From positions 1 through 22,458 of IMG/VR virus record IMGVR_UViG_3300027759_000459: 22,458 bases of DNA. One strand, given 5' to 3'. The position numbers and the translations under genes were made by a program. Numbering within the stretch: position 1 is the stretch's first letter; each line of letters begins with the position of its first letter. This stretch comes from a virus. The notes below the pieces were generated by a model, which saw only the letters and a program-made list of their open reading frames with translations, made no database searches and was not told the DNA's origin. This document shows, piece after piece, positions 3,578 through 22,458 of the stretch.

Positions 3578-6500
3578 TTACAATGGTACTGTGAATGTAA
3601 AGCTACCAGTTGTGTTTGTGAATGTATGATATGTGTTAGGCGCTGAATAAGTGATTGTTCCACCTGATGCTTTACTTCCAGATCCTGGATATGCAACTAT
3701 AACAACTCCATTTCCTCCTTTAGCTCCATTGATTCCTACATTACCAGTCTGGTTACCACCACCGCCTCCTCCACCTCCAAGTCCATCTGTTCCTGGTTGT
3801 GCTGCGCTTGGACTAGATATAGAACCTCTACCTCCACCTCCAATACCACCTGCACCGAATGATGCTCCTTGACTAGTGTATCCACCACCGCCGCCTCCAG
3901 CGTAGTTAGTGCCATTTACTGTCCAAGTTAAACCCGCGCCACCTGCTCCACTATTTGTTATTCCATCACCTCCAACTGCGCCTGCTCCTCCACCTCCGGC
4001 ATTAGGATAGTTAGATGCTCCACCTCCTGCTCCACCATCGTTACCACCAGTTGATGATAAACCACCACCAGCTAAGTAAGAACCACCACCGCCAGATCCA
4101 CCATTTCCACCTGCATTTCCAGCAGATCCTCCTATTCCACCACCTTGACTTGTTATTGTATGGAAAGTAGAATCAGATCCTGTTTTAGCTGCAGCTCCTG
4201 TGTATACTGCTCCAGTACCACCAACTCCAACCGAAACTGTGTATGATGATCCTGTAGGTATAGTAAAACTACCACTTCTAAGAGATCCTGCTCCACCGCC
4301 ACCACCTTGTTGTCCACCTCCACCTCCACCACCTACAACTAAGTATTGTACGTCTAATGAAGAGCTACCAGGGGTTGGAGGTGCACTACCGCTACATCCA
4401 TTGTTATAGAAATCGCTATTGTAATCACAGTTAAAGTCTCCAAAAGTTGTAGGACCAGAACCACTTGCTGGTAATGTTCCAAACTGTTGTGCTGCTAAAG
4501 CATCTGAAATAATTGGTCCTAATAGTTCAACCATACACTCACCTGTAGTAAGGTCGTAATCGTTTATTGCTCTTAAGTGGTAATAGTTACCTCTGAATTG
4601 TACTAAGTCGTTTAACTCCATATCGAAGTACTTAGCTAAAGGAATTACTGCTGATGCATTTACTAATCTAGTATTTGGAGCGTATAATAAATTTAAGTAA
4701 GTAGACCAATATGTGTCTATTAAACTATTTTCAGGAGTTGTTCCTAAAGTTGCTGTTTCGTTGTTAAATAGTAAACTTCTAGAACCTAGTGTGGGATAGG
4801 ACCCACTGATCACATTGTAATTATCGAAGTAAGGATATGTTTGTTGAGGATTTTGGCCTATCGACATTGGAGTAGCAGCGCTGTTTGTACCTTCTATATA
4901 ATATTCACTAGAGCTAACCATACCGTTATTGAATAGAAGTCTAGGAAATACTTGAGTTGGTCTATAGTTTTGATCACCTATATATAATGGAATTGCTACT
5001 GGTAAGAAACTAGAACTCGCTTGAGTGTCTGGTAAACCACTACAAGATCCATTTAAAGTCCAACTTACTTGAGAACCAACTAATTTAGGATACACTCCAT
5101 TTTGAGCGCATATAAATAAAGGAGTTGTAGTTGGAGTTATTGATTGCGTTACTGGTAATCCTTCGCAACTAGTATATCTAACTGAAGCAGCTCCTGCAGT
5201 TCCACCATAATTAATCTGATAGCTTGTACATGAATTTCCAACTGAAGATCCAGAAGTTACTGTTTGAGCCAGTTGAAATATGGGTCCGGAACCAAGTACT
5301 GTCTCAACTTTAAAGTCTCCTTCAGAAAAATAAGAACCAGTATCTAACCAAAAAGATTGACCGTAAATTCTATTGTTTTCTTGTTTGAATACTTTAGATA
5401 TATAATCCTCGTCGTTTTTGTCGCTAAAAGAAATTTTGTTTACTGCCAATGTATTTGCTGGAATAAACTCAACCTTATTCTTAATGTTTATGTATTGATT
5501 AAAATCTTGTACTTGGCCTTTTAAATACCAATCGTTAAAAGATTCTACTATCATTTGATTAGGAGTAGTCTTATCTTCGTATATTACAAGATTAAATTTC
5601 TTTTGTATTGCTCTAATAAATTCAACTAACTTAATTCCATTAGTACCAAAAGGCATATTAAGTGGAATTTCCATTACTCTATAATCAGCAGCTTGTCTTA
5701 CTTGAGTTACTTCAAATGAACAATAATCTCTACTTCCTGTTGGATTTAAAAATAGATTGTAGTTAGGAGTTACTGCAACACCACCTGAAGAGCCTGATGC
5801 AATGTATGCTTGTTGTAGTATTTTAAAACTAATAGATCCAGTTAATGGAGAGGTATTAATTGTTTCACTAACTGTAAAATTTTCTGTTACAGTTGTGCTT
5901 CCAACTCTATTCTCTGCTACTCTTGCTGTATACTCGTTTATAAGAGCTAGCACTTGATAGTCAACTTGATTTCCATTAGCATCAAAAGCATAATAATACC
6001 ATACTGGATATTGAGATTGTGCAGTAGTGGATGAATTTACTACTCTATAAGATAATTGTATTTTTGCCAAATATCTGCTAGGAATGGAAGCAAAATATTT
6101 GAATGGATTTCCTACCGTAAAGAATCCACTGTAATCGTATTCTATTGCGCCCATTGGTAAATTGGTAACAGTGTTATTAGTCAACTGATAATTGTCTGCT
6201 GATCCTAATATATCTACTACTTTTCCTTGGCCAAATGTTTCTAATTCTGCATAAGAGAATTCAGGATATCTGCTCCTAGTATTTAATAAAACGTATACAT
6301 CTTCTAACCAAGATTGATTAAAGAAACTACCAGTATAAGTAAATCCAACTTTCTCAAATATACCATCAAATAAAGCTTTTAGTCTTATAGCTGGTTTGTA
6401 ATCTGATACTGTTAATCCATCTTGGTTATCGTCTATACCAACAAAAGTTTGATTAGAAAATTGTATTCTTTTACCATAGTCAGCCATTGGATATCTTATA

Positions 6501-6997
6501 TCACCATTAAAAAGATTTCCTTCCCAACTTCCTGTAATAGCATCGTAAGAACTAGTGTGGTTAAATTTTGATAAGTTATCTAACTGATCTAAATAAAGTC
6601 TATTAGTTTCTACAGAGAAATTGCTAATAGCACCAAATAAGTTTACTTCGTAAGAGTCTACGAACTTATTCTCAACTACATTAACCTTCATTAATTGCAT
6701 GTAACCATTTACTAAATACACAGATCCAAAATCCAAATAAGCATTCACTTTTGCGTTTGAATAAAAAGTATCTGGACTGTATACAGAAATGTCGTAGTAC
6801 TGTTCGAAGAAAGCGTCGTTCTTTTTTGTACCTGGTAAAGTTATAGTTCTTGTAAAAGTTCCTGGTACTGAACCAATATCAAATAGATCAGTGATGTTAT
6901 TACTAATCTTAATTGATTCGTCTGCAAATGTATCCAAGATAACATTATCTCCTGCTACTAATTGGTACCTATAACCTTGTGTAGTAAATAAACTCAT
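3578..6997 (-). CDS. tail hub/baseplate-like protein with C-terminal glycine-rich fibre domain
   Basis: The 1139-aa protein has two parts. Residues 1 to about 870 resemble large tail-tip proteins of Bacteroidota phages: the N-terminus carries ESIKISNNITDL and TFTRTITLPGTKKNDAFFEQ, a pattern seen in these hub or Tal-like proteins. From about residue 882 the sequence changes to VQYLVVGGGG followed by a glycine-rich array with repeated GGGGGAG and GGxGG patterns. It ends in a beta-like TITYSAPNTYHTF/FTFTVPL segment. The 339-aa protein encoded at 14363-15382 has the same glycine-rich domain type. A Pro/Ser/Gly linker (APPTPGSSS) joins the two parts. The gene starts one base after the stop of the Dit-like gene. 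The first part probably forms the tail tip; the second probably binds surfaces or builds a fibre (inference). Confidence 0.7.
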   Translation of the reverse strand: MSLFTTQGYRYQLVAGDNVILDTFADESIKISNNITDLFDIGSVPGTFTRTITLPGTKKNDAFFEQYYDISVYSPDTFYSNAKVNAYLDFGSVYLVNGYMQLMKVNVVENKFVDSYEVNLFGAISNFSVETNRLYLDQLDNLSKFNHTSSYDAITGSWEGNLFNGDIRYPMADYGKRIQFSNQTFVGIDDNQDGLTVSDYKPAIRLKALFDGIFEKVGFTYTGSFFNQSWLEDVYVLLNTRSRYPEFSYAELETFGQGKVVDILGSADNYQLTNNTVTNLPMGAIEYDYSGFFTVGNPFKYFASIPSRYLAKIQLSYRVVNSSTTAQSQYPVWYYYAFDANGNQVDYQVLALINEYTARVAENRVGSTTVTENFTVSETINTSPLTGSISFKILQQAYIASGSSGGVAVTPNYNLFLNPTGSRDYCSFEVTQVRQAADYRVMEIPLNMPFGTNGIKLVEFIRAIQKKFNLVIYEDKTTPNQMIVESFNDWYLKGQVQDFNQYINIKNKVEFIPANTLAVNKISFSDKNDEDYISKVFKQENNRIYGQSFWLDTGSYFSEGDFKVETVLGSGPIFQLAQTVTSGSSVGNSCTSYQINYGGTAGAASVRYTSCEGLPVTQSITPTTTPLFICAQNGVYPKLVGSQVSWTLNGSCSGLPDTQASSSFLPVAIPLYIGDQNYRPTQVFPRLLFNNGMVSSSEYYIEGTNSAATPMSIGQNPQQTYPYFDNYNVISGSYPTLGSRSLLFNNETATLGTTPENSLIDTYWSTYLNLLYAPNTRLVNASAVIPLAKYFDMELNDLVQFRGNYYHLRAINDYDLTTGECMVELLGPIISDALAAQQFGTLPASGSGPTTFGDFNCDYNSDFYNNGCSGSAPPTPGSSSLDVQYLVVGGGGGGGQQGGGGGAGSLRSGSFTIPTGSSYTVSVGVGGTGAVYTGAAAKTGSDSTFHTITSQGGGIGGSAGNAGGNGGSGGGGSYLAGGGLSSTGGNDGGAGGGASNYPNAGGGGAGAVGGDGITNSGAGGAGLTWTVNGTNYAGGGGGGYTSQGASFGAGGIGGGGRGSISSPSAAQPGTDGLGGGGGGGGNQTGNVGINGAKGGNGVVIVAYPGSGSKASGGTITYSAPNTYHTFTNTTGSFTFTVPL

Positions 6998-8297: not shown

Positions 8298-8780
8298 TTA
8301 TAGTTTAATTGATATCATGGTATCTATATCGTTCTCTATGTCTTGTACCACTGCTTCTTCTAGTACATACTCGTAAGATTTCATAGCTTCATCAAATGGA
8401 TCACTAAAAAATGGAAATGGTTTTATGCCATTCTTTGAGATTCCACGGGCTATTAAAAAGGTTTGTGCGTCTCTTGAAATATACCGACCCTTATTATTTC
8501 TCCACTGTTCTAGTCCTTTTATTTTTACCCAACTTGCTATTTTAGATATAGGTGGGAATTTAGCTCCTGCGCGTCTGCCTCCTTCAACATAATCTCCAGC
8601 ATCGTCGTAGTAAAACTCTACAGTTCCATTTGGCAATATCTCAAAAGTAATTGATTTGTATAAGTTTCCTGTAGCTACTTTGTTTTTTCTTAGTATATTG
8701 GCCTTAGCTTGAGCAGTAACATTTGAAGCCCATTCAACAAGAGTATTGTAGCTTACTGATCCTATAGTATTAGAAGCCAT
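8298..8780 (-). CDS. head-tail connector / tail completion protein, HK97 gp10-like
   Basis: The 160-aa protein has features of the HK97 gp10-like family: an early segment KVATGNLYKSITFEI, then GDYVEGGRRAGAKFPPISKI at about 63-82 and IARGISKNGIKPFPFF at about 109-124. The proline-containing RR.GAKFPPI..I..W and KPFPFF blocks are the diagnostic part. These proteins complete the neck or the head-proximal end of the tail. The ATG overlaps the stop of the upstream gene as TAATG, indicating coupled translation with the tail-terminator-like gene, a usual neighbour. Confidence 0.75.
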   Translation of the reverse strand: MASNTIGSVSYNTLVEWASNVTAQAKANILRKNKVATGNLYKSITFEILPNGTVEFYYDDAGDYVEGGRRAGAKFPPISKIASWVKIKGLEQWRNNKGRYISRDAQTFLIARGISKNGIKPFPFFSDPFDEAMKSYEYVLEEAVVQDIENDIDTMISIKL

Positions 8781-9313
8781 TAGTTACATCCATTTATTCC
8801 GCCATCTGCTTGAGCATCAGTAACGTTATAGAATAAACAGTTACTTGGATTGAAAGGTACAGTTATATTCATTACAGCAGAGAATCCCGCTAATGCGTTA
8901 TCTAGCCTTTCTTGGAATGGAGTTAGAATCACATCGTCGCTAATAGAAAATTGGTAAGGTTGTGCATTGTTCTTTATGTATACTATAATATCTGACAATG
9001 TCATCATAGAAGTATTCCAAACATCTAATAGGTTTGTAATGCCCTTATAATCTTTTGTAATACTGTTGTACTTACCGTAAGAGTCTTGTACTATATCTGC
9101 AGTTCTGTCCATTACAAGTAAATTAACATTGTAAGTCATAGCTGAGTATCCAGTAATAGTAGCATTGTTTAAAACCATGTAAGCCAAAGGAAATAAGGTC
9201 TGCTTAGCAGTATCTGCATCCATCATATCGTCTGATACATTAAATGTTTCTATATTTGGATGAGACAAACAAACAGAATTAAAGAACTGAGTAAAAGAGT
9301 ATATAGTTTGCAT
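8780..9313 (-). CDS. probable tail terminator / tail completion protein
   Basis: The 177-aa protein contains an N-terminal SHPNIETFNVSDDMMDAD stretch, a central segment with VNLLVMDRTADIVQDS and, toward the end, LTPFQERLDNALAGFSAVMNI and PFNPSNC. This pattern resembles a Bacteroidota-phage protein that lies between connector and gp10-like genes and probably caps the tail tube, like gpU-type terminators. The match is by recognition, with context as main support. It starts at ATG overlapping the stop of the 49-aa gene as TAATG, and its own stop overlaps the gp10-like start. Confidence 0.6.
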   Translation of the reverse strand: MQTIYSFTQFFNSVCLSHPNIETFNVSDDMMDADTAKQTLFPLAYMVLNNATITGYSAMTYNVNLLVMDRTADIVQDSYGKYNSITKDYKGITNLLDVWNTSMMTLSDIIVYIKNNAQPYQFSISDDVILTPFQERLDNALAGFSAVMNITVPFNPSNCLFYNVTDAQADGGINGCN

Positions 9314-9463: not shown

Positions 9464-9976
9464 TTAAAGTACCCATCCATTTGTGTAAGATTGGCCCATA
9501 TCAGGATAAACGTTATCTAATTGACCGTTAGATTGATTGTACTGAGGATATAGCGTGTTATTAGCAATCAAGTATGTAGTCAACCTTTCGTTGTAGAACT
9601 GTGCTGTCTGTAATTCTTTTTGTAATAAGAAATCTATGTCATTCTTAGTTGGACTAACCGCTTGCTCACTAGTATTTTTGTATATACTACCGTTTGCTAT
9701 AGTGTAAGCTAAGAATGGTAGAGCTTCACATACAGCGTAGTGCACTAAACAGTCTTTTATGTATAACTCAACAAGAGTCACATAAACACCACTTAAAGTG
9801 CCTGCTTCTATTTGATCTTGTAAGTATTCGTACAATACAGTACCACAAGTAGTCAAGATGTTTTTGTCTTGAGCTGTCTTTACAAATGGTATGATCTTTT
9901 CAGGATCGATGTTTCCACCAACGTAAGAACGTTTGATGATATCATTTCTTGATATGAATAATATATTTCTGCTCAT
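9464..9976 (-). CDS. head-tail connector (adaptor) protein, gp6-like
   Basis: The 170-aa, largely helical protein begins MSRNILFISRNDIIKRSYV and continues IDPEKIIPFVKTAQDKNI and GTVLYEYLQDQI, then a helix with LYIKDCLVHYAVCEALPFL. This resembles Bacteroidota-phage adaptor proteins of the DUF6712 / gp6-like type that bind below the portal. Its ATG overlaps the portal stop as TAATG, so the two are probably translated together, as expected for portal and adaptor. Length is normal for the family. Confidence 0.65.
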   Translation of the reverse strand: MSRNILFISRNDIIKRSYVGGNIDPEKIIPFVKTAQDKNILTTCGTVLYEYLQDQIEAGTLSGVYVTLVELYIKDCLVHYAVCEALPFLAYTIANGSIYKNTSEQAVSPTKNDIDFLLQKELQTAQFYNERLTTYLIANNTLYPQYNQSNGQLDNVYPDMGQSYTNGWVL

Positions 9977-11304
9977 TATTTAGCTATTTCGTAATTGTGT
10001 TCTAATTCCCAACTTGACCAATCTTGCTTAGAAAATCCTTGAGGTCCTGGATCAACGAAGCCAATTGTTTCGTTTGGATTGTTTGTGTCTGTGTCTGCTC
10101 CTTCTGAAGATGGCTCAACTCCTTGAGTATCTGCTACATCGTTAGGATTCTCTATAATCTCTTGTGCTCCAGCGTCACCAGCTTCTTGTTGTAATTCTGC
10201 CAAGAAACCAAATGGAATTAATGGTGCAAAGTATAGCTCTTGACCTTCGTAGCCATTGTACTCAATGATGCCCTGGATCTGCTTAACCACCTCTTCTTGC
10301 ATAGGGTTGATTACCATAGCCAAAAAGATCTCGTATGCGTTCTTGAGCTCGTCTGCGTTACTGGAGAAGCCTGATGCTGTTTTGATACCAAATAACATTT
10401 GACTTGTTACTCTGTGTGCCAACATTATCTTTCTACTAGACTCTTCTGCAATAAAATCGTACTGTTGGTGTAAATTCTCTGGTCTTAACATTTCTACTGT
10501 AGTCTTTTGCTCAGCGTTCTCGTTAAAGCTTAAGATAAACTTACCAGCGTTTGAAGTACCAGCAAATTTAGATGCTATTGTAGTTTCAAGTAAGTATTGT
10601 TCTTCTGATGCAGGTAAACCACCATTAAAATTGATGATTGTACTTGGCATGAAGTTATTCAAGATATTGTTGATGTGTAAGTTTGCTACCTCTTCCTCTA
10701 CAGCACAGTATTGAATTGAGCTATAGTAATCAGGAATACCATAGTAGAATTTACCAGGCGAATATTTCTTGAAGTATATAATTTGTGTATCGTTCTCAAA
10801 CTCCTCTTCGCCAAATGCCGGAATTCTTGTAGGTTGTATTCTTCGGTTTGACCAATCTGAAGAGTAGTAGAAACCATGAATAACTCCATCGTCACCAACT
10901 TTCTCACTTCTTAATGTGTCAACTGGAATATGATAAAAACCAATTACTGTTTCCCTATCTTCAGAGAATACACATTGAATAGCAGCATTACCAAACATTT
11001 TGTAATCGAATACAATCTTTCTAATCTCATCGTTAGTGGTTAATGTGTAAAGATAGTCCTCTAATTGTTGGAATCCCTTTTTACCTTTGATACCCTTACC
11101 ATAAATTAAATCCGTAGATCCATCTATACAAGCCTGATTTGTTGGACTAGTTTCGTATCTTTTAATAAGTGTAGTAAAGAAATCGTCAGCTCCATCGATT
11201 CCAATCTCTACGTGTTGCTTTCTACCTTTAGTTTCGGTAATCTTTGGCAGTATGTAACCTCCTGAAAGGTTAATTACTTTTACTCTTGATTCTTTTGTTT
11301 CCAT
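9976..11304 (-). CDS. portal protein
   Basis: The 442-aa protein matches PBSX/XkdE-like and phage portal proteins. It has an early region ending ACIDGSTDLIYGKGIKGKKG (about 58-77), then FDYKMFGNAAIQCVF, VIGFYHIPVDTLRS, a YFKKYSPGKFYYGIPDYYSS block at about 178-197 and AHRVTSQMLFGIKTASGFSS at about 296-315. The YGIPDYY block and the late helical MVINPMQEEVV segment are typical. Portals form the 12-fold ring through which DNA is packaged and released. The C-terminus is acidic and low in complexity (about 385-440). The protein is compact at 442 aa. It lies after the capsid and tube genes, the reverse of the common order, and its stop overlaps the adaptor start. Confidence 0.85.
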   Translation of the reverse strand: METKESRVKVINLSGGYILPKITETKGRKQHVEIGIDGADDFFTTLIKRYETSPTNQACIDGSTDLIYGKGIKGKKGFQQLEDYLYTLTTNDEIRKIVFDYKMFGNAAIQCVFSEDRETVIGFYHIPVDTLRSEKVGDDGVIHGFYYSSDWSNRRIQPTRIPAFGEEEFENDTQIIYFKKYSPGKFYYGIPDYYSSIQYCAVEEEVANLHINNILNNFMPSTIINFNGGLPASEEQYLLETTIASKFAGTSNAGKFILSFNENAEQKTTVEMLRPENLHQQYDFIAEESSRKIMLAHRVTSQMLFGIKTASGFSSNADELKNAYEIFLAMVINPMQEEVVKQIQGIIEYNGYEGQELYFAPLIPFGFLAELQQEAGDAGAQEIIENPNDVADTQGVEPSSEGADTDTNNPNETIGFVDPGPQGFSKQDWSSWELEHNYEIAK

Positions 11305-12574: not shown

Positions 12575-13510
12575 TTAGTTTCTGCTTACTTGGTAAACGA
12601 TATCTGGACCAAATCCGAATGCTACACCCGCTGTATATCTCATGATAATACGAACGTTTTGAGATCCGTCTAAGTCAGCCATATCCAATACTTTAACTTC
12701 GTTTCTGTCAGACAATAAAGCCGTACCGAAGAATAAGTTAGATTTTTGAGCAGCTACTACAGCCGTTGGTGGTAAACCTGGGCAATGTAATAAAGGAATA
12801 CCTTGGAAATCCATTGGTTTCAAGCCAATAACTGTTTGGTTATTGTAACCGTTAGCGTAAGCTGAACCTCCTGCAACTGCAGTTTGGAAAGCTTTCATTG
12901 TAGCAGTAGAAACATAGATACCTAAATCTTCTTTACCGTATACAGATGTAGGGATTAAATCTACTACGCCTTGTAAAGCAGCAATTACTGTTGAAGAACC
13001 AGTGATAGAACCACTAGTTGCTAAAGAACCAGAGATAACTCCTGAACCATTCGCTCTAAATAAAGAATCGAAAGATTGGAATTGACCTGATGGAACACCA
13101 GAACCAGTCCAGATATTACTTTCAGTTTGAGCAGCTACTTGAGCAGCAACTTGACCGATCATAAATTCTGTGAAAGAAGCAGGTAAGTTATCAAATACAG
13201 AGATACCCATTTCAATAGCTTCCCAATCAGAACGGAAGTCTTTCTTACATAATTGTAAGTTAACTTGAAATTCATCAGGAGTTAAAATAGTCTCAGTTAA
13301 AGTAACTGTAGAAGTTGCAGTGAAATCACATTGCGCATCAAAGATAGCGTTGTCATTACTGTACTTTTTGATTACCTCTTTGTACTTAATATTTGGTTTG
13401 ATTGTTATGTACTCTTTATCAAGAGTTGGAGCTGATAACAAGGCAGCTGCGATATACTTACCAGAGAATTGTCCGGCATAGGTAGTGGTGATCGAAGTAG
13501 TTGTTGGCAT
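12575..13510 (-). CDS. major capsid protein, HK97 fold
   Basis: The 311-aa protein has the layout of HK97-fold capsid proteins of Bacteroidota phages. A Thr-rich N-terminus precedes YAGQFSGKYIAAALLSAPTL, then YKEVIKKYSNDNAIFDAQCD, a helix QLCKKDFRSDWEAIEMGIS at about 86-104, the TESNIWTGSG region, and a C-terminal VKVLDMADLDGSQNVRIIM and AGVAFGFGPDIVYQ block. A GSGVISGSLATSGSITGSS insert at about 153-171 adds the TGS/SGS repeats seen in many neighbours and may lie on a surface loop (inference). The length is typical. It lies directly after the scaffold-like gene, 33 bases apart, and is preceded by an A-rich leader without a Shine-Dalgarno site. Confidence 0.85.
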   Translation of the reverse strand: MPTTTSITTTYAGQFSGKYIAAALLSAPTLDKEYITIKPNIKYKEVIKKYSNDNAIFDAQCDFTATSTVTLTETILTPDEFQVNLQLCKKDFRSDWEAIEMGISVFDNLPASFTEFMIGQVAAQVAAQTESNIWTGSGVPSGQFQSFDSLFRANGSGVISGSLATSGSITGSSTVIAALQGVVDLIPTSVYGKEDLGIYVSTATMKAFQTAVAGGSAYANGYNNQTVIGLKPMDFQGIPLLHCPGLPPTAVVAAQKSNLFFGTALLSDRNEVKVLDMADLDGSQNVRIIMRYTAGVAFGFGPDIVYQVSRN

Positions 13511-14362: not shown

Positions 14363-15382
14363 TTAAGCTGGAAGAGGATTGTCTAGATTAACTCTAAGTA
14401 TTACAATTCCTGAACCACCATTACCATAAAAAATAGGAGAAATGCCACCAGTTCTGTAATTACTACCACCAGCTCCGCCGCCTCCACCTGTTCTTTGTTG
14501 ACCATCAGAGTATGCATTACCTCCACCACCTATTCCGCCTGAACCAGTAGGATATAAAGTGTAATCGAAAGTACTTAAGTTAAGACTAGATACATAATCT
14601 GCTCCACCTCCACCTGCGTACCATGATCCACTTGTACTACCAATATAGCTAAATGATCCTGATCCTCCATTTCCTGGTCTTGCATAGGTATATAGTCCTA
14701 CAACAAAGCTAGATCCACTTGTACCTACAGATGTAGCGCCACCGCCACCACCTCCGATCCAATATGATGTAGCATTTCCGTCTGGAGGTCCTGATACAGG
14801 TCCTACAACAGAACCTGATCCACCTGCAAATCCTTGAGATCCTGTACCTGGCGCTTGTACTTGTAGATTTCCACCTCCTCCTCCACCTGATCCTCCATTT
14901 CCTGCTGGAGCGTACGCTGCATCTCTATTAACTGCCATAGATCCTGCTCCGCCTCCGCCTCCAAAAGAAACAATTGAAAAAGGCAAAGTAGATCCTGTAA
15001 TATATGATAGAGACCCACTAAATCCATAGTCAGGTGCTGATCCTGATGGTTGATACCATTGTCCACCAAAACCAACTCGTATATCATAAGGTTGATTTGC
15101 TATAGCAGTAAATGATCCGCTTAATAAACCACCACCTCCTCCTCCGCCCTGTTCAACTCCACCAGATCCTCCTCCTGCAACTATTAAGTATTCAACCCTA
15201 TAGTTTCTAGAGAATGTAATAGATCCAGTGCCTTGACTAGGTATAGCACTACCTGAATCATTATAGAATGAAAATACTGTGTCGTTACCAACATTGTATA
15301 CATCTACAGATCCAGTAGTTTTAAATAATGGGTATATTTGAGGTTGACCGAACCCTATGTAATTACCAAATGCATTAATCAT
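14363..15382 (-). CDS. glycine-rich tail fibre protein
   Basis: The 339-aa protein has a 60-residue N-terminal part rich in Gly, Tyr and Ser, then RVEYLIVAGGGSGG at about 60. This opens a glycine-rich array with repeated GGGGGGG and GGxGGSGG patterns up to a final GNGGSGIVILRV. It is a stand-alone version of the domain fused to the hub protein (YLVVGGGGG there, YLIVAGGGS here). Such glycine-rich domains are common in tail fibres of environmental phages and probably pack as polyglycine-type helices at the fibre tip (established for some phage adhesins, inferred here). It starts 8 bases after the 212-aa gene. Confidence 0.65.
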   Translation of the reverse strand: MINAFGNYIGFGQPQIYPLFKTTGSVDVYNVGNDTVFSFYNDSGSAIPSQGTGSITFSRNYRVEYLIVAGGGSGGVEQGGGGGGGLLSGSFTAIANQPYDIRVGFGGQWYQPSGSAPDYGFSGSLSYITGSTLPFSIVSFGGGGGAGSMAVNRDAAYAPAGNGGSGGGGGGNLQVQAPGTGSQGFAGGSGSVVGPVSGPPDGNATSYWIGGGGGGATSVGTSGSSFVVGLYTYARPGNGGSGSFSYIGSTSGSWYAGGGGADYVSSLNLSTFDYTLYPTGSGGIGGGGNAYSDGQQRTGGGGGAGGSNYRTGGISPIFYGNGGSGIVILRVNLDNPLPA

Positions 15383-18360: not shown

Positions 18361-21300
18361 TTATATTAAGTTATTAACGTTTGATACGTATAATCCTGTA
18401 CTATCGAATGAAATCAATGTAACAATATCTACTGCGTTTGCTGTAGAAGATCCTGTATAATAAGATCCTGATACTTGTTTAAATCCTGCACCAAAACTTA
18501 AAGATCCAGTTGTTGCGCCTTGAGTTACTTTTATATTTACTGTTTGACCAGGTAATTGACCACTTGCTGTGATGTAAGTGTTTGCGGATGCTGGTAAAGT
18601 TAAGTTAAAGAAGTTACCTGTTGCTAAGTTTAAACTTGCTGTGTTCGAACTTACTGATTGAGATACGGGTTGACCTACTAAAGAACCAGTAATTGTTTGA
18701 GACCCTGTTATTGAGAAAGATCCAGTTAAATTATGTGCATCTGCAAGTAAATTACCAATCTTAACTCCTGTTGCTCTTACTTCTAATTCTGTTTCTCCAG
18801 TTTCTGTGCCTCTTACATTTAATCCTATGTTTGCAGTGGTCATACCTGATGCAGATACGTGGAATGCTGTAGATCTTGATGCATCTGAAGCTCCTGTACC
18901 AATTGCAAATTTAGTAAATCTACCATCGTTTAGTAATCCATCAGCTGTATTGTTTTGACCAAATACTGCGATGTTAGCTGTTGTACTGTTTGAGTTACTA
19001 CTACCAGTTACAACTAAGTGTCTACCTATAATAGCAGAATCTAAAAGAGAAGGAGTGGAAGAAACAGTACTATTAAGTGGTGTAGAACCAGTTAATGACA
19101 ATTTGATGTTACTACCAACTATTATGTTACTACTTAATGTAGCAGTTCCAGAACTTGTAGCATTAAAAGTAATAGTCGTTGTAGCAGCAGTGGCTATTAT
19201 GTTAGCAGCTAATGTAGCATTTCCTGCTTGAGTACCTGATCCACTTAATACAAAAGTAGTACCGCTTCCAAGTAATTGAGAGTTATTAATGGTTAAACTT
19301 CCAGACTGAATATTTGCTGTTGCGGTCATAAGCAAATTACTACTATTGAAAACAACTGGAGTACTTGTTTCTGTTAATCTATTATCATTTACGGTTATCG
19401 TTGAGTTAACGTTACTATTAGCAAAATTTGGTCCTCTTCTTCCTATTGCTGAACTAAAATTAGGATTAGAACCACTAACTAAAGGCAATACTGTTATGTA
19501 AGAATTTGTACCACCAAATGCTGATGTTGCGCCTTGATTAGCGAAAACGTTGGCTAAAAATGAAGTAGTTGATATGATATTTCCAGATCCTGATACTATG
19601 AAAGATCCAGTACTTGTAGCTGATGTATGATTAACACTAATGATATTATTTAGAGCATTTTCTGATTGAGTAACGCAAGCTTCGAAAGATTTATTATTTG
19701 CTACTTTCTGACTATATAATATTATAGAACCTGAAGATATATTAGTTGATCCGCTTATTGTTAAGCTACCTGTAATTACTGCTGAACCACTAAAAGGGAA
19801 ATCTGATCCTGCATTTAAAGCGTAGGATGCAGTTGTTGCTATACTTGCAGATAAAGCAAAAGAAGAACTTATTGCAACACTAGCTGATATAGCAAAAGAA
19901 GCACTTGTTGAAAAGCTAGCAGATAAAGAAGATCCAGCAAGAGATGATGTAGCAGCGTTATTTGCAAACGATGCAGTTACATTCATTACACTAATAAAAG
20001 GCGCTACTGGCGTATCAAAGTATACATCTGTTTCTATTGATGCTGATTTGTATCCACTTGCATTATTTACAATTAATGGATATTGTCTTTGACCAAATCC
20101 TGTTGGTGAGTGTATATTATTTACTGCAATCTTATCAGCATTGTTTGCTGTTCCTGCTGTTGAAGCAAATGAAGCTGAAGTAGCATTAATAGCTGTAGAA
20201 GCTAATGTAGCGAAAGAAGCGCTTAAAGAATTAACAGCTGATGATGCAGTGTATGCATAAGAAGAACTTACTACACCGTATACACTTGCACCAGATCCAG
20301 AGAATGCTGTTGCGTTAACTTGGCCATTAAATGTAGTGCCTTGTGAACCGCCTGCTCCAAATAAAGCTACTACATTGCCACCATTATTTAGTATTTCTAC
20401 TCCATTAACCGCTGGTGCTTTTAAGTGATGAGTAATTACTGAGTTGTTAGCATCGTATACTGTGATAGATCCGCTTACGTTAACTGAACCTGTTGCCACT
20501 AAAGGACCTGATACTACATTAACTGTACCCCATAATGTTTGAGTATCGTTAGCAGCATCTCCTAATTGGTTAGATCCACTTGAGTAGATAACAGAACTTG
20601 ATTGGAACGTTACGTCTAAGAATGCTATAGATGCTGTACCCGTAATTTTTATATTAGATGCAGTAATATTGCTACTAAAAGTATTTACTCCACTAAATGT
20701 TTGGTTTGCCGATAGTACTGCATAAGAAGCCGTAGCAGTATTAAGAGCAGATATAGACGCAGAGTTACTAGTTAATCTAGTAGATGCACTTCCAGAAAAT
20801 GTGTTATAACTTGCACTTAATGCAATATAACTAGCACTTACTTGTTGAGTAGAAGAACTTACTTGTAATAAAGAAGAACTAATAGCAGATATAGATGCAC
20901 TATTTGCGGTAATTCTTGTAGAAGCACTACCTGAAAAAGTATTATATGATGAACTTAAAGCTGTATAACTAGAAGATAAGGCATTAAAAGAACCAGTACT
21001 TGCAAATGCAGTATAATCTAATCCATCCAATAATTCTGCATTACTAGCGTAACTAGAACTAATTGCAGTATTTGCAGTTCCAGCTGTATTAGCATAACTT
21101 GCGCTTGCTACAGATCCTGATACTGCTATACTTAAACTAAATTGACTACCATCTCCTTTTGTAAATGTAATAGTGTTTAAGTTTATCGAAGCTGTTTGTA
21201 TGTTTGTGGTAGCTAAACTACTTGTTGTAGATTTAAAAGCACTAGAAGCTGTATAAGCATAAGATGCACTAGTAGCGTTACTTGCACTAAAAGCGTAAGA

Positions 21301-21516
21301 TGCTGTTACTGCAAATGATGCAGATGATACTGTTCCTAGAAGTAGGGATGCTGTTTCTGCGTATCTTACTGATGCATTAGGTAGATCTTCTGGAAATGTA
21401 GAAGAGCTAATCCATGCTGTATTAAGTTGTTGTACTTGTTGTGGAGTAATTAATCCTGACGTATTGGGTACGTAGGTATTATTTGAGTCTACAATTATCT
21501 GACTTTTAGTTGCCAT
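18361..21516 (-). CDS. long tail fibre protein
   Basis: The 1051-aa protein is rich in Ser, Ala, Thr and Gly. Residues 1-60 hold NTAWISSST and probably the attachment end. Stretches at about 60-110 and 520-570 repeat SASYA/TASYA, a periodic pattern seen in trimeric phage fibres. Two copies of a 33-residue unit around SGSASTR lie in the first third. An AELLDGLDYTAF block fits the .LDG.....FA motif of fibre shafts. The C-terminal region carries TGSQTITGSL and ends with FKQVSGSYYTGSSTANAVDI, the likely tip domain, shared with the 182-aa protein. The protein probably forms a trimeric receptor-binding fibre. Its start is preceded by an A-rich leader. Confidence 0.75.
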   Translation of the reverse strand: MATKSQIIVDSNNTYVPNTSGLITPQQVQQLNTAWISSSTFPEDLPNASVRYAETASLLLGTVSSASFAVTASYAFSASNATSASYAYTASSAFKSTTSSLATTNIQTASINLNTITFTKGDGSQFSLSIAVSGSVASASYANTAGTANTAISSSYASNAELLDGLDYTAFASTGSFNALSSSYTALSSSYNTFSGSASTRITANSASISAISSSLLQVSSSTQQVSASYIALSASYNTFSGSASTRLTSNSASISALNTATASYAVLSANQTFSGVNTFSSNITASNIKITGTASIAFLDVTFQSSSVIYSSGSNQLGDAANDTQTLWGTVNVVSGPLVATGSVNVSGSITVYDANNSVITHHLKAPAVNGVEILNNGGNVVALFGAGGSQGTTFNGQVNATAFSGSGASVYGVVSSSYAYTASSAVNSLSASFATLASTAINATSASFASTAGTANNADKIAVNNIHSPTGFGQRQYPLIVNNASGYKSASIETDVYFDTPVAPFISVMNVTASFANNAATSSLAGSSLSASFSTSASFAISASVAISSSFALSASIATTASYALNAGSDFPFSGSAVITGSLTISGSTNISSGSIILYSQKVANNKSFEACVTQSENALNNIISVNHTSATSTGSFIVSGSGNIISTTSFLANVFANQGATSAFGGTNSYITVLPLVSGSNPNFSSAIGRRGPNFANSNVNSTITVNDNRLTETSTPVVFNSSNLLMTATANIQSGSLTINNSQLLGSGTTFVLSGSGTQAGNATLAANIIATAATTTITFNATSSGTATLSSNIIVGSNIKLSLTGSTPLNSTVSSTPSLLDSAIIGRHLVVTGSSNSNSTTANIAVFGQNNTADGLLNDGRFTKFAIGTGASDASRSTAFHVSASGMTTANIGLNVRGTETGETELEVRATGVKIGNLLADAHNLTGSFSITGSQTITGSLVGQPVSQSVSSNTASLNLATGNFFNLTLPASANTYITASGQLPGQTVNIKVTQGATTGSLSFGAGFKQVSGSYYTGSSTANAVDIVTLISFDSTGLYVSNVNNLI
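20741..20979 (-). repeat. two-copy 33-residue repeat inside the long fibre gene
   Basis: Two segments, 20881-20979 (first in transcription) and 20741-20840, encode nearly identical units around YNTFSGSASTR, NSASISA. Base-level identity is lower than amino-acid identity, so this is an old duplication rather than a recent one. Confidence 0.6.
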
Positions 21517-21870: not shown

Positions 21871-22152
21871 TTACGATGGGTTCCTAGGCAGCTTCATCCT
21901 ATTGGATTCAAATACTGCAAAGTCTCTTTTATAGGCTAAATTAGTTAAGCATGCGTGGATGTTGAGTCTTGTAACGTCGTCAAACTTTGTGAGATCGTTT
22001 CCTGCAATGACTGCAATTGTGGCGTAAAAACCCCATTTTCTGCCAAAATTTGAGCTTCCGTTGAGGTCGGTTGATCTATTATCCTCTTCGTCTGATTCTT
22101 CGAAAAGGTCAGGATACCTATCATTAAGTCCATCTGTAAACGCAAAAAAAAA
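21871..22152 (-). CDS. -1 frame extension of the chaperone-like gene, without its own start codon
   Basis: The -1 frame relative to the gene at right is open from just after a TAG at 22153-22155 to TAA at 21871-21873, 93 codons. It has no ATG, GTG or TTG except one ATG nine codons before the end, so it cannot be started independently by usual codons. It reads as protein: an acidic linker (FEESDEEDN), then FGRKWGFYATIAVIAGNDLT, KFDDVTRLNIHACLTNLAYK and a basic end. A GWY..I..LA.GD..K.D.V.....A...L.Y segment is a pattern I know from C-terminal parts of chaperone-like proteins in Bacteroidota phages. It is therefore probably made by -1 frameshifting at the T9 run (22144-22152). It overlaps the zero-frame C-terminus for about 200 bases. 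Confidence 0.75.
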   Translation of the reverse strand, partial: FFFAFTDGLNDRYPDLFEESDEEDNRSTDLNGSSNFGRKWGFYATIAVIAGNDLTKFDDVTRLNIHACLTNLAYKRDFAVFESNRMKLPRNPS

Positions 22153-22458
22153 CTAAGAGCACCGAATACAATGTCCATGGTAAGTTTCTGTTTAAACATT
22201 TCTATGACATCTTGATCTATAGAATTATAGGATTGTATTGAGTACTTACCCTTTTTATCTTCTACTATTGGTCTGTATAGTATTGTCATTATCTCGGCTA
22301 TGTTTTGCCACATGTCTTTAGAATATTCAGATAAATCTACATATTCGCCATAACTCATATCGTCAAGATTAGGAATAAAACCATATTTTGTATTACCAAG
22401 TTCGAAGTGCTTTACTAACTCATGCTTTTTACTGGACTCTATTAGTTTTAAAACATCT
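21945..22458 (-). CDS. tail assembly chaperone-like protein (zero frame), 5' end cut by window edge
   Basis: The frame is open from the right edge to TAA at 21945, giving 170 visible residues; the first in-window ATG is at 22358, but 33 in-frame codons lie upstream, so the start is probably outside. It contains KYGFIPNLDDMSYGEYVDLS, WQNIAEIMTILYRPI, YNSIDQDVIEMFKQKLTMDI and VFGALSFFLRLQMDLMIG, then a Gln/Ser/Thr-rich tail. The IP.LD.MSYGEYVDL and ..AVLYRP patterns resemble a family frequent in Bacteroidota phages and possibly tail assembly chaperones (family recollection, no search). After the T9 run the zero frame continues for 67 codons, overlapping the -1 frame. Confidence 0.65.
   Translation of the reverse strand, partial: DVLKLIESSKKHELVKHFELGNTKYGFIPNLDDMSYGEYVDLSEYSKDMWQNIAEIMTILYRPIVEDKKGKYSIQSYNSIDQDVIEMFKQKLTMDIVFGALSFFLRLQMDLMIGILTFSKNQTKRIIDQPTSTEAQILAENGVFTPQLQSLQETISQSLTTLQDSTSTHA
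22144..22152 (-). promoter_or_regulatory. programmed -1 frameshift site (T9 slippery run)
   Basis: Nine T in a row on the minus strand, read AGT TTT TTT TTG in the zero frame. This holds the heptamer T-TTT-TTT, which allows perfect re-pairing of both tRNAs after a -1 slip. The -1 product continues as FFFAFTDG. RNA polymerase slippage on the same run would give the same switch. No stimulatory stem or pseudoknot was verified. Confidence 0.7.

Follow-up and report, generated by a model that had tools for sequence, protein, structure and literature searches.

A nine-T run, a conserved -1 frame change and a long dual-coding overlap in a gene of phages related to flavobacterial phages

The stretch of DNA analyzed here (the window) comprises all 22,458 nucleotides of the viral record IMGVR_UViG_3300027759_000459 of IMG/VR. 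Its minus strand carries a run of nine T at 0.3 kb from the contig end, which is the only homopolymer of nine or more nucleotides in the window. The record ends inside the gene that holds this run (hereafter the slippery gene), and an alignment with relatives indicated that some 58-60 N-terminal residues are absent. The zero frame is open from position 22457 to its own stop, about 66 codons beyond the run. The -1 frame is preceded by a TAG that directly abuts the run, which leaves the run itself or a point beyond it as the only places of entry; no start codon occurs in this frame before the ATG of MKLPRNPS, close to its end. The codon phasing of the run, the opening of the -1 frame behind the TAG and its lack of an early start codon had all been described in the original prediction and were recovered from the sequence (Table 1).

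Table 1. Features of the slippery gene in the window.
Feature	Position	Strand	Description and basis
Slippery run T9	22144-22152	minus	zero frame AGT TTT TTT TTG; contains T_TTT_TTT and T_TTT_TTG
TAG stop of the -1 frame	22153-22155	minus	0 nt between TAG and T run
Zero-frame product (predicted short form)	21945-22457	minus	5' end cut by contig end; stop codon 21947-21945; open reading frame list, PHROG match, alignment
C-terminal domain of the predicted long form (-1 frame)	21871-22152	minus	93 codons plus stop TAA (21873-21871); alignment, PHROG match, AF2
Dual-coding overlap of zero-frame tail and -1-frame domain	21945-22143	minus	stop avoidance; fourfold-site conservation across relatives
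Third-frame TAA	22124-22126	minus	20 nt past the run; would end products of the other slip direction; sequence

A PHROG search connected the zero-frame product to phrog_32199 (E=6.4e-9) and the -1-frame domain to phrog_38404 (E=0.0044), with a query that was off by one residue (FFFALTDG for FFFAFTDG). In the AF2 model the -1-frame domain is mostly helical. The zero-frame product was modelled with good confidence (pLDDT 81, pTM 0.70), except for the part past residue 194, which was poorly predicted; this end of the zero-frame tail is probably disordered.

We have collected relatives by using the -1 domain and the zero-frame part as separate queries against viral and bacterial sequences. The relatives on viral contigs number in the hundreds (284 were reported in one search and at least 574 in another) and include the isolated Nonlabens phages P12024L and P12024S. 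The gene was also found in bacterial genomes, including those of Flavobacteriaceae such as Galbibacter pacificus CAA-3 and Flagellimonas onchidii XY-359; within a set of 399 Flavobacteriaceae genomes, three had it. Profiles of both halves identified the two of them together in 348 of 352 loci, the remaining four being short loci (1.8-2.0 kb) with one half only. The relation between the halves appears completely general: in each of the 348 loci the T run is followed by the C-terminal domain in the -1 frame, and an in-frame fusion was found in none. Two products with a shared N-terminus and a conserved frame change, as in genes of the G/GT type, are thus predicted for all 348 loci. It had been suggested that the -1 frame looks like real protein, and its recurrence in all of these relatives, which goes far beyond chance, bears this out; no relative with one continuous frame was encountered. 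The annotation of phage P12024L treats the halves as separate hypothetical proteins, and its sequence at the frame switch is CATACTTTTTTTTTATC. Among phages related to flavobacterial phages, the slippery gene is a real, widespread and unannotated gene with a programmed -1 frameshift, from which, judging by the sequences, two protein products would be made. The families phrog_32199 and phrog_38404, which are listed separately and unlinked in PHROG and have no function assigned, are to be read as the two halves of one frameshifted gene. The connection joins two families of unassigned function into a single gene, which is split or overlooked by annotation pipelines.

A member of the family was also observed on a contig that had been assigned to an Epsilonproteobacteria genome bin (JAHZJZ010000222.1). 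It groups with the viral contigs of the family, and the contig is probably of phage origin and misbinned in that assembly.

The length of the run is strictly bounded from below. It measures nine T in 302 and ten T in 46 of the 348 loci, and is never shorter. The 122 non-redundant loci all hold the in-phase heptamer T_TTT_TTT (a core of TTTTTT plus a wobble T), but the FF that is conserved in both frames would be enough to fix this heptamer. The two T beyond the heptamer are distributed one per side in most loci, and otherwise are both on the left or both on the right. More specifically, where codon 1 lacks its middle T (AGT, GGT, AAT, GCT), codon 4 starts with TT, and where codon 4 lacks its initial T (CTG, CTC, ACT, ATT), codon 1 is TTT. 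Shuffling of codon 4 among the 122 sequences produced on average 13.4 runs of fewer than nine T, versus none in reality, and zero short runs were obtained in none of 20,000 shuffles, a procedure that ignores the kinship among loci. Parsimony on the protein tree required five changes for the exception at codon 1 (left) and three for that at codon 4 (right), and therefore the compensation is not a single inherited case. In line with this, the window was placed apart from the other clade with the same type of exception when a smaller set was used for a careful tree. A homopolymer of at least nine nucleotides that is kept by selection, which is a characteristic of transcriptional slippage, is therefore found throughout the family. 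Outside the slip site runs of nine T are infrequent, with 44 unique contexts in 1.4 Mb, and most of the contexts listed lie about 500-590 nt upstream, near or before the gene start. Indeed, a second run of nine T at that distance from the slip run recurs in many relatives (e.g. L021, L038 and L072), and it is possibly the tail of the terminator of the preceding gene.

The frameshifting of tail assembly chaperones is a textbook case of ribosomal frameshifting. For the slippery gene, a programmed -1 slip of the ribosome on T_TTT_TTT, of the lambda G/GT and P2 E/E+E' kind and with the extra T being incidental or mildly stimulatory, is a conceivable explanation that we nevertheless regard as rather unlikely. 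The heptamer is invariably in phase, and the phage chaperone frameshifts examined to date have been ribosomal (PMC5009743); the same review mentions cases that lack stimulators. However, a ribosomal slip leaves unexplained why runs of seven or eight T are absent and why several lineages made up for the loss of a T on one side with a T on the other. Moreover, the stimulators that are common in ribosomal -1 frameshifting, though not obligatory, were not found: downstream of the run no RNA structure stood out (mean z -0.06 to 0.33 versus shuffled sequence), and a Shine-Dalgarno-like signal was present in only 38 of the 348 loci and is not conserved. Bacterial transcriptional slippage is known to occur on runs of nine A or T (PMC5009743), and T runs of more than eight nucleotides are active in programmed transcriptional realignment (PMC3711429). 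The strict minimum of nine T, the compensation between the sides and the lack of a structure or a conserved Shine-Dalgarno-like signal together favour transcriptional over ribosomal slippage, and we consider it probable that the slip at the T run is transcriptional. This evidence, though indirect, is strong, and it is new for a gene of this kind. Of the frameshift that was originally proposed, the expression of the -1 frame is thus supported by all 348 relatives, whereas the ribosomal mechanism has become less likely than the transcriptional slippage that had been named as an alternative.

In the transcriptional scheme, RNA polymerase would sometimes slip on the run of nine or ten T and leave one extra U in the mRNA, and normal translation of this mRNA would yield the long form. 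The short protein would then consist of the N domain and the zero-frame tail, and the long protein of the same N domain and the different C domain encoded in the -1 frame. Ribosomal slippage on the heptamer inside the run may play a part as well. The two proteins would probably act like G and GT, with many short forms and few long ones during tail assembly. If true, the same outcome as that of ribosomal chaperone frameshifting can be reached at the level of transcription. We found no report of transcriptional slippage in phage tail genes in the open-licence literature, which is weak evidence of absence. The run has been kept at nine T or more through repeated codon changes, and the family offers hundreds of natural variants for testing.

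Three other explanations of the arrangement can be considered. The -1 domain could be a separate gene with a start of its own, and P12024L is in fact annotated with two coding sequences. However, 67 of 90 non-redundant loci have no start codon in the -1 frame before codon 15 past the run and the T run itself encodes the start of the domain, with the TAG just before it in the window, which makes a separate gene most improbable. Phase variation, in which changes in the length of the T run in the DNA would toggle between a fused and an unfused gene, is even harder to defend: homopolymers are prone to slipped-strand changes (PMC3711429), but no locus shows the fused state and the alleles with ten T retain the -1 offset. 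The weakest explanation is an assembly or sequencing error, with one T missing at a contig end of low coverage, which the position of the site might suggest but which is contradicted by the same frame relation in the finished isolate P12024L and in genomes of Flavobacteriaceae, for one of which the contig name states 413x coverage. The -1 relation in all 348 loci, none of them fused, excludes the last two explanations for the family.

A clear signature of selection was found in the overlap between the two frames. In the relatives the zero frame continues past the run for mostly about 50-86 and typically 53-62 codons before its own stop, with a mean of 55 codons over 90 non-redundant loci; a few lineages have a short tail of only 15-25 codons. 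When the -1 protein was kept and its codons were sampled according to the usage in the upstream part, the simulated opening had a mean of 14 codons, and the difference was significant (p<0.05) in 90% of the 90 loci. A stricter permutation of codons within each sequence retained this significance in 48% of them. For the window alone, the avoidance of zero-frame stops had p<0.001 by codon usage and p=0.022 by permutation. Moreover, the identity across relatives at fourfold sites that code the same residue is 0.71 in the overlap, against 0.45 upstream and 0.50 beyond the zero-frame stop. The conservation thus drops at this stop, and it is uneven within the overlap, where one bin is at 0.48. The avoidance of stops and the conservation of fourfold sites together imply that the overlap is dual-coding in most of the family. 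The original prediction of about 200 dual-coding bases, based on a zero frame that continues for 67 codons, agrees with the length that we found, and the selection on both frames that it called for examining is evident. The long dual-coding overlap is a new feature of the slippery gene, and the family constitutes a large natural set of a region in which both frames are under selection. The third frame closes almost at once past the run, with a stop within 30 nt in 89 of the 90 loci. This stop was dropped as evidence for slippage, since it is partly forced by the residues of the other two frames.

A comparison with known systems reveals common as well as distinct elements. Like lambda G/GT, the slippery gene is a gene in the tail module of a tailed phage with a -1 frame change and two products that share one N-terminus, the products here being predicted from the genes. 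However, lambda slips on GGGAAAG with five zero-frame codons left, whereas the slippery gene has nine or ten T and a long dual-coding tail. Moreover, lambda G and T are flanked directly by the major tail and tape measure genes, whereas the slippery gene follows that of the large terminase (TerL) and is separated from the tape measure gene by four genes. With P2 E/E+E' it shares a T-rich slip site (TTTTTTG) and the -1 direction, and the related phrog_166 is weakly matched by members of the family; yet the run of P2 has six T, is followed by six zero-frame codons and belongs to the gene directly before the tape measure gene. Two long overlapping C-termini are indeed unusual by these standards, as had been remarked. 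Thermus dnaX and Shigella mxiE and spa13 also switch frame at a homopolymer of about nine A or T (PMC3711429, PMC5009743), but they are not phage structural genes, and the slippery gene has a conserved C-terminus in both frames over a long overlap.

The genomic context links the slippery gene to the phage structural genes. In the Galbibacter prophage (L106) the order is TerL, the slippery gene, four genes of unassigned function, the tape measure gene (matching phrog_1538 with E=2e-7), a protease, a capsid-like gene and one more conserved gene. Phage P12024L likewise has its large terminase gene directly upstream. The prophage gene is inside the tail module, but not at the chaperone position between the major tail and tape measure genes, directly before the latter, and for this reason the slippery gene was not filed as a chaperone of the G/GT type. 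The order in the window differs from that in the prophage; the two genes that come next in the prophage have counterparts in the window, assigned to the same PHROGs, at 8780-9313 (phrog_30964) and 8298-8780 (phrog_29822). On the minus strand of the window the portal gene (9976-11304, phrog_33693) is preceded by a capsid-like gene (12575-13510, phrog_11320), and tail-type genes follow.

A relation to known chaperones is hinted at by the sequences. Nine of 31 members match phrog_166 weakly (best E=0.001), and the profile of phrog_166 matches P2 gpE (E=4e-7). A direct hhalign comparison of the family with P2 gpE gave no match, the Pfam search matched no family, chaperone families included, and sequence and fold searches of the PDB revealed nothing similar. 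A fold search of BFVD returned many uncharacterized phage proteins and one weak match to an annotated tail assembly chaperone (E=0.03, TM 0.34-0.39). Considering the location in the tail module and this weak similarity, a chaperone-like role of the product in tail assembly seems fairly likely. The earlier designation as a tail assembly chaperone gene thus holds for the phage-structural setting, whereas the chaperone identity itself is plausible. We are similarly inclined to see the whole as a programmed -1 frameshift gene that would produce a chaperone-like protein pair, mostly through slippage of RNA polymerase. The fuller proposition, that a widespread lineage of such phages uses slippage of RNA polymerase, in place of ribosomal frameshifting, to control the ratio of two tail-assembly proteins, with two functional and selected C-termini in the same 150-250 bases, may be right or wrong with about equal chance.

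Elsewhere in the window, two different long structural-type proteins on the minus strand (3578-6997 and 14363-15382) have the same kind of glycine-rich stretch (EYLIVAGGGSGG and QYLVVGGGGGGG, respectively), as if it were a module shared between tail genes. A third long gene on this strand (18361-21516) encodes a protein of 1051 residues that consists largely of degenerate repeats rich in A, S and T and resembles a tail fibre.
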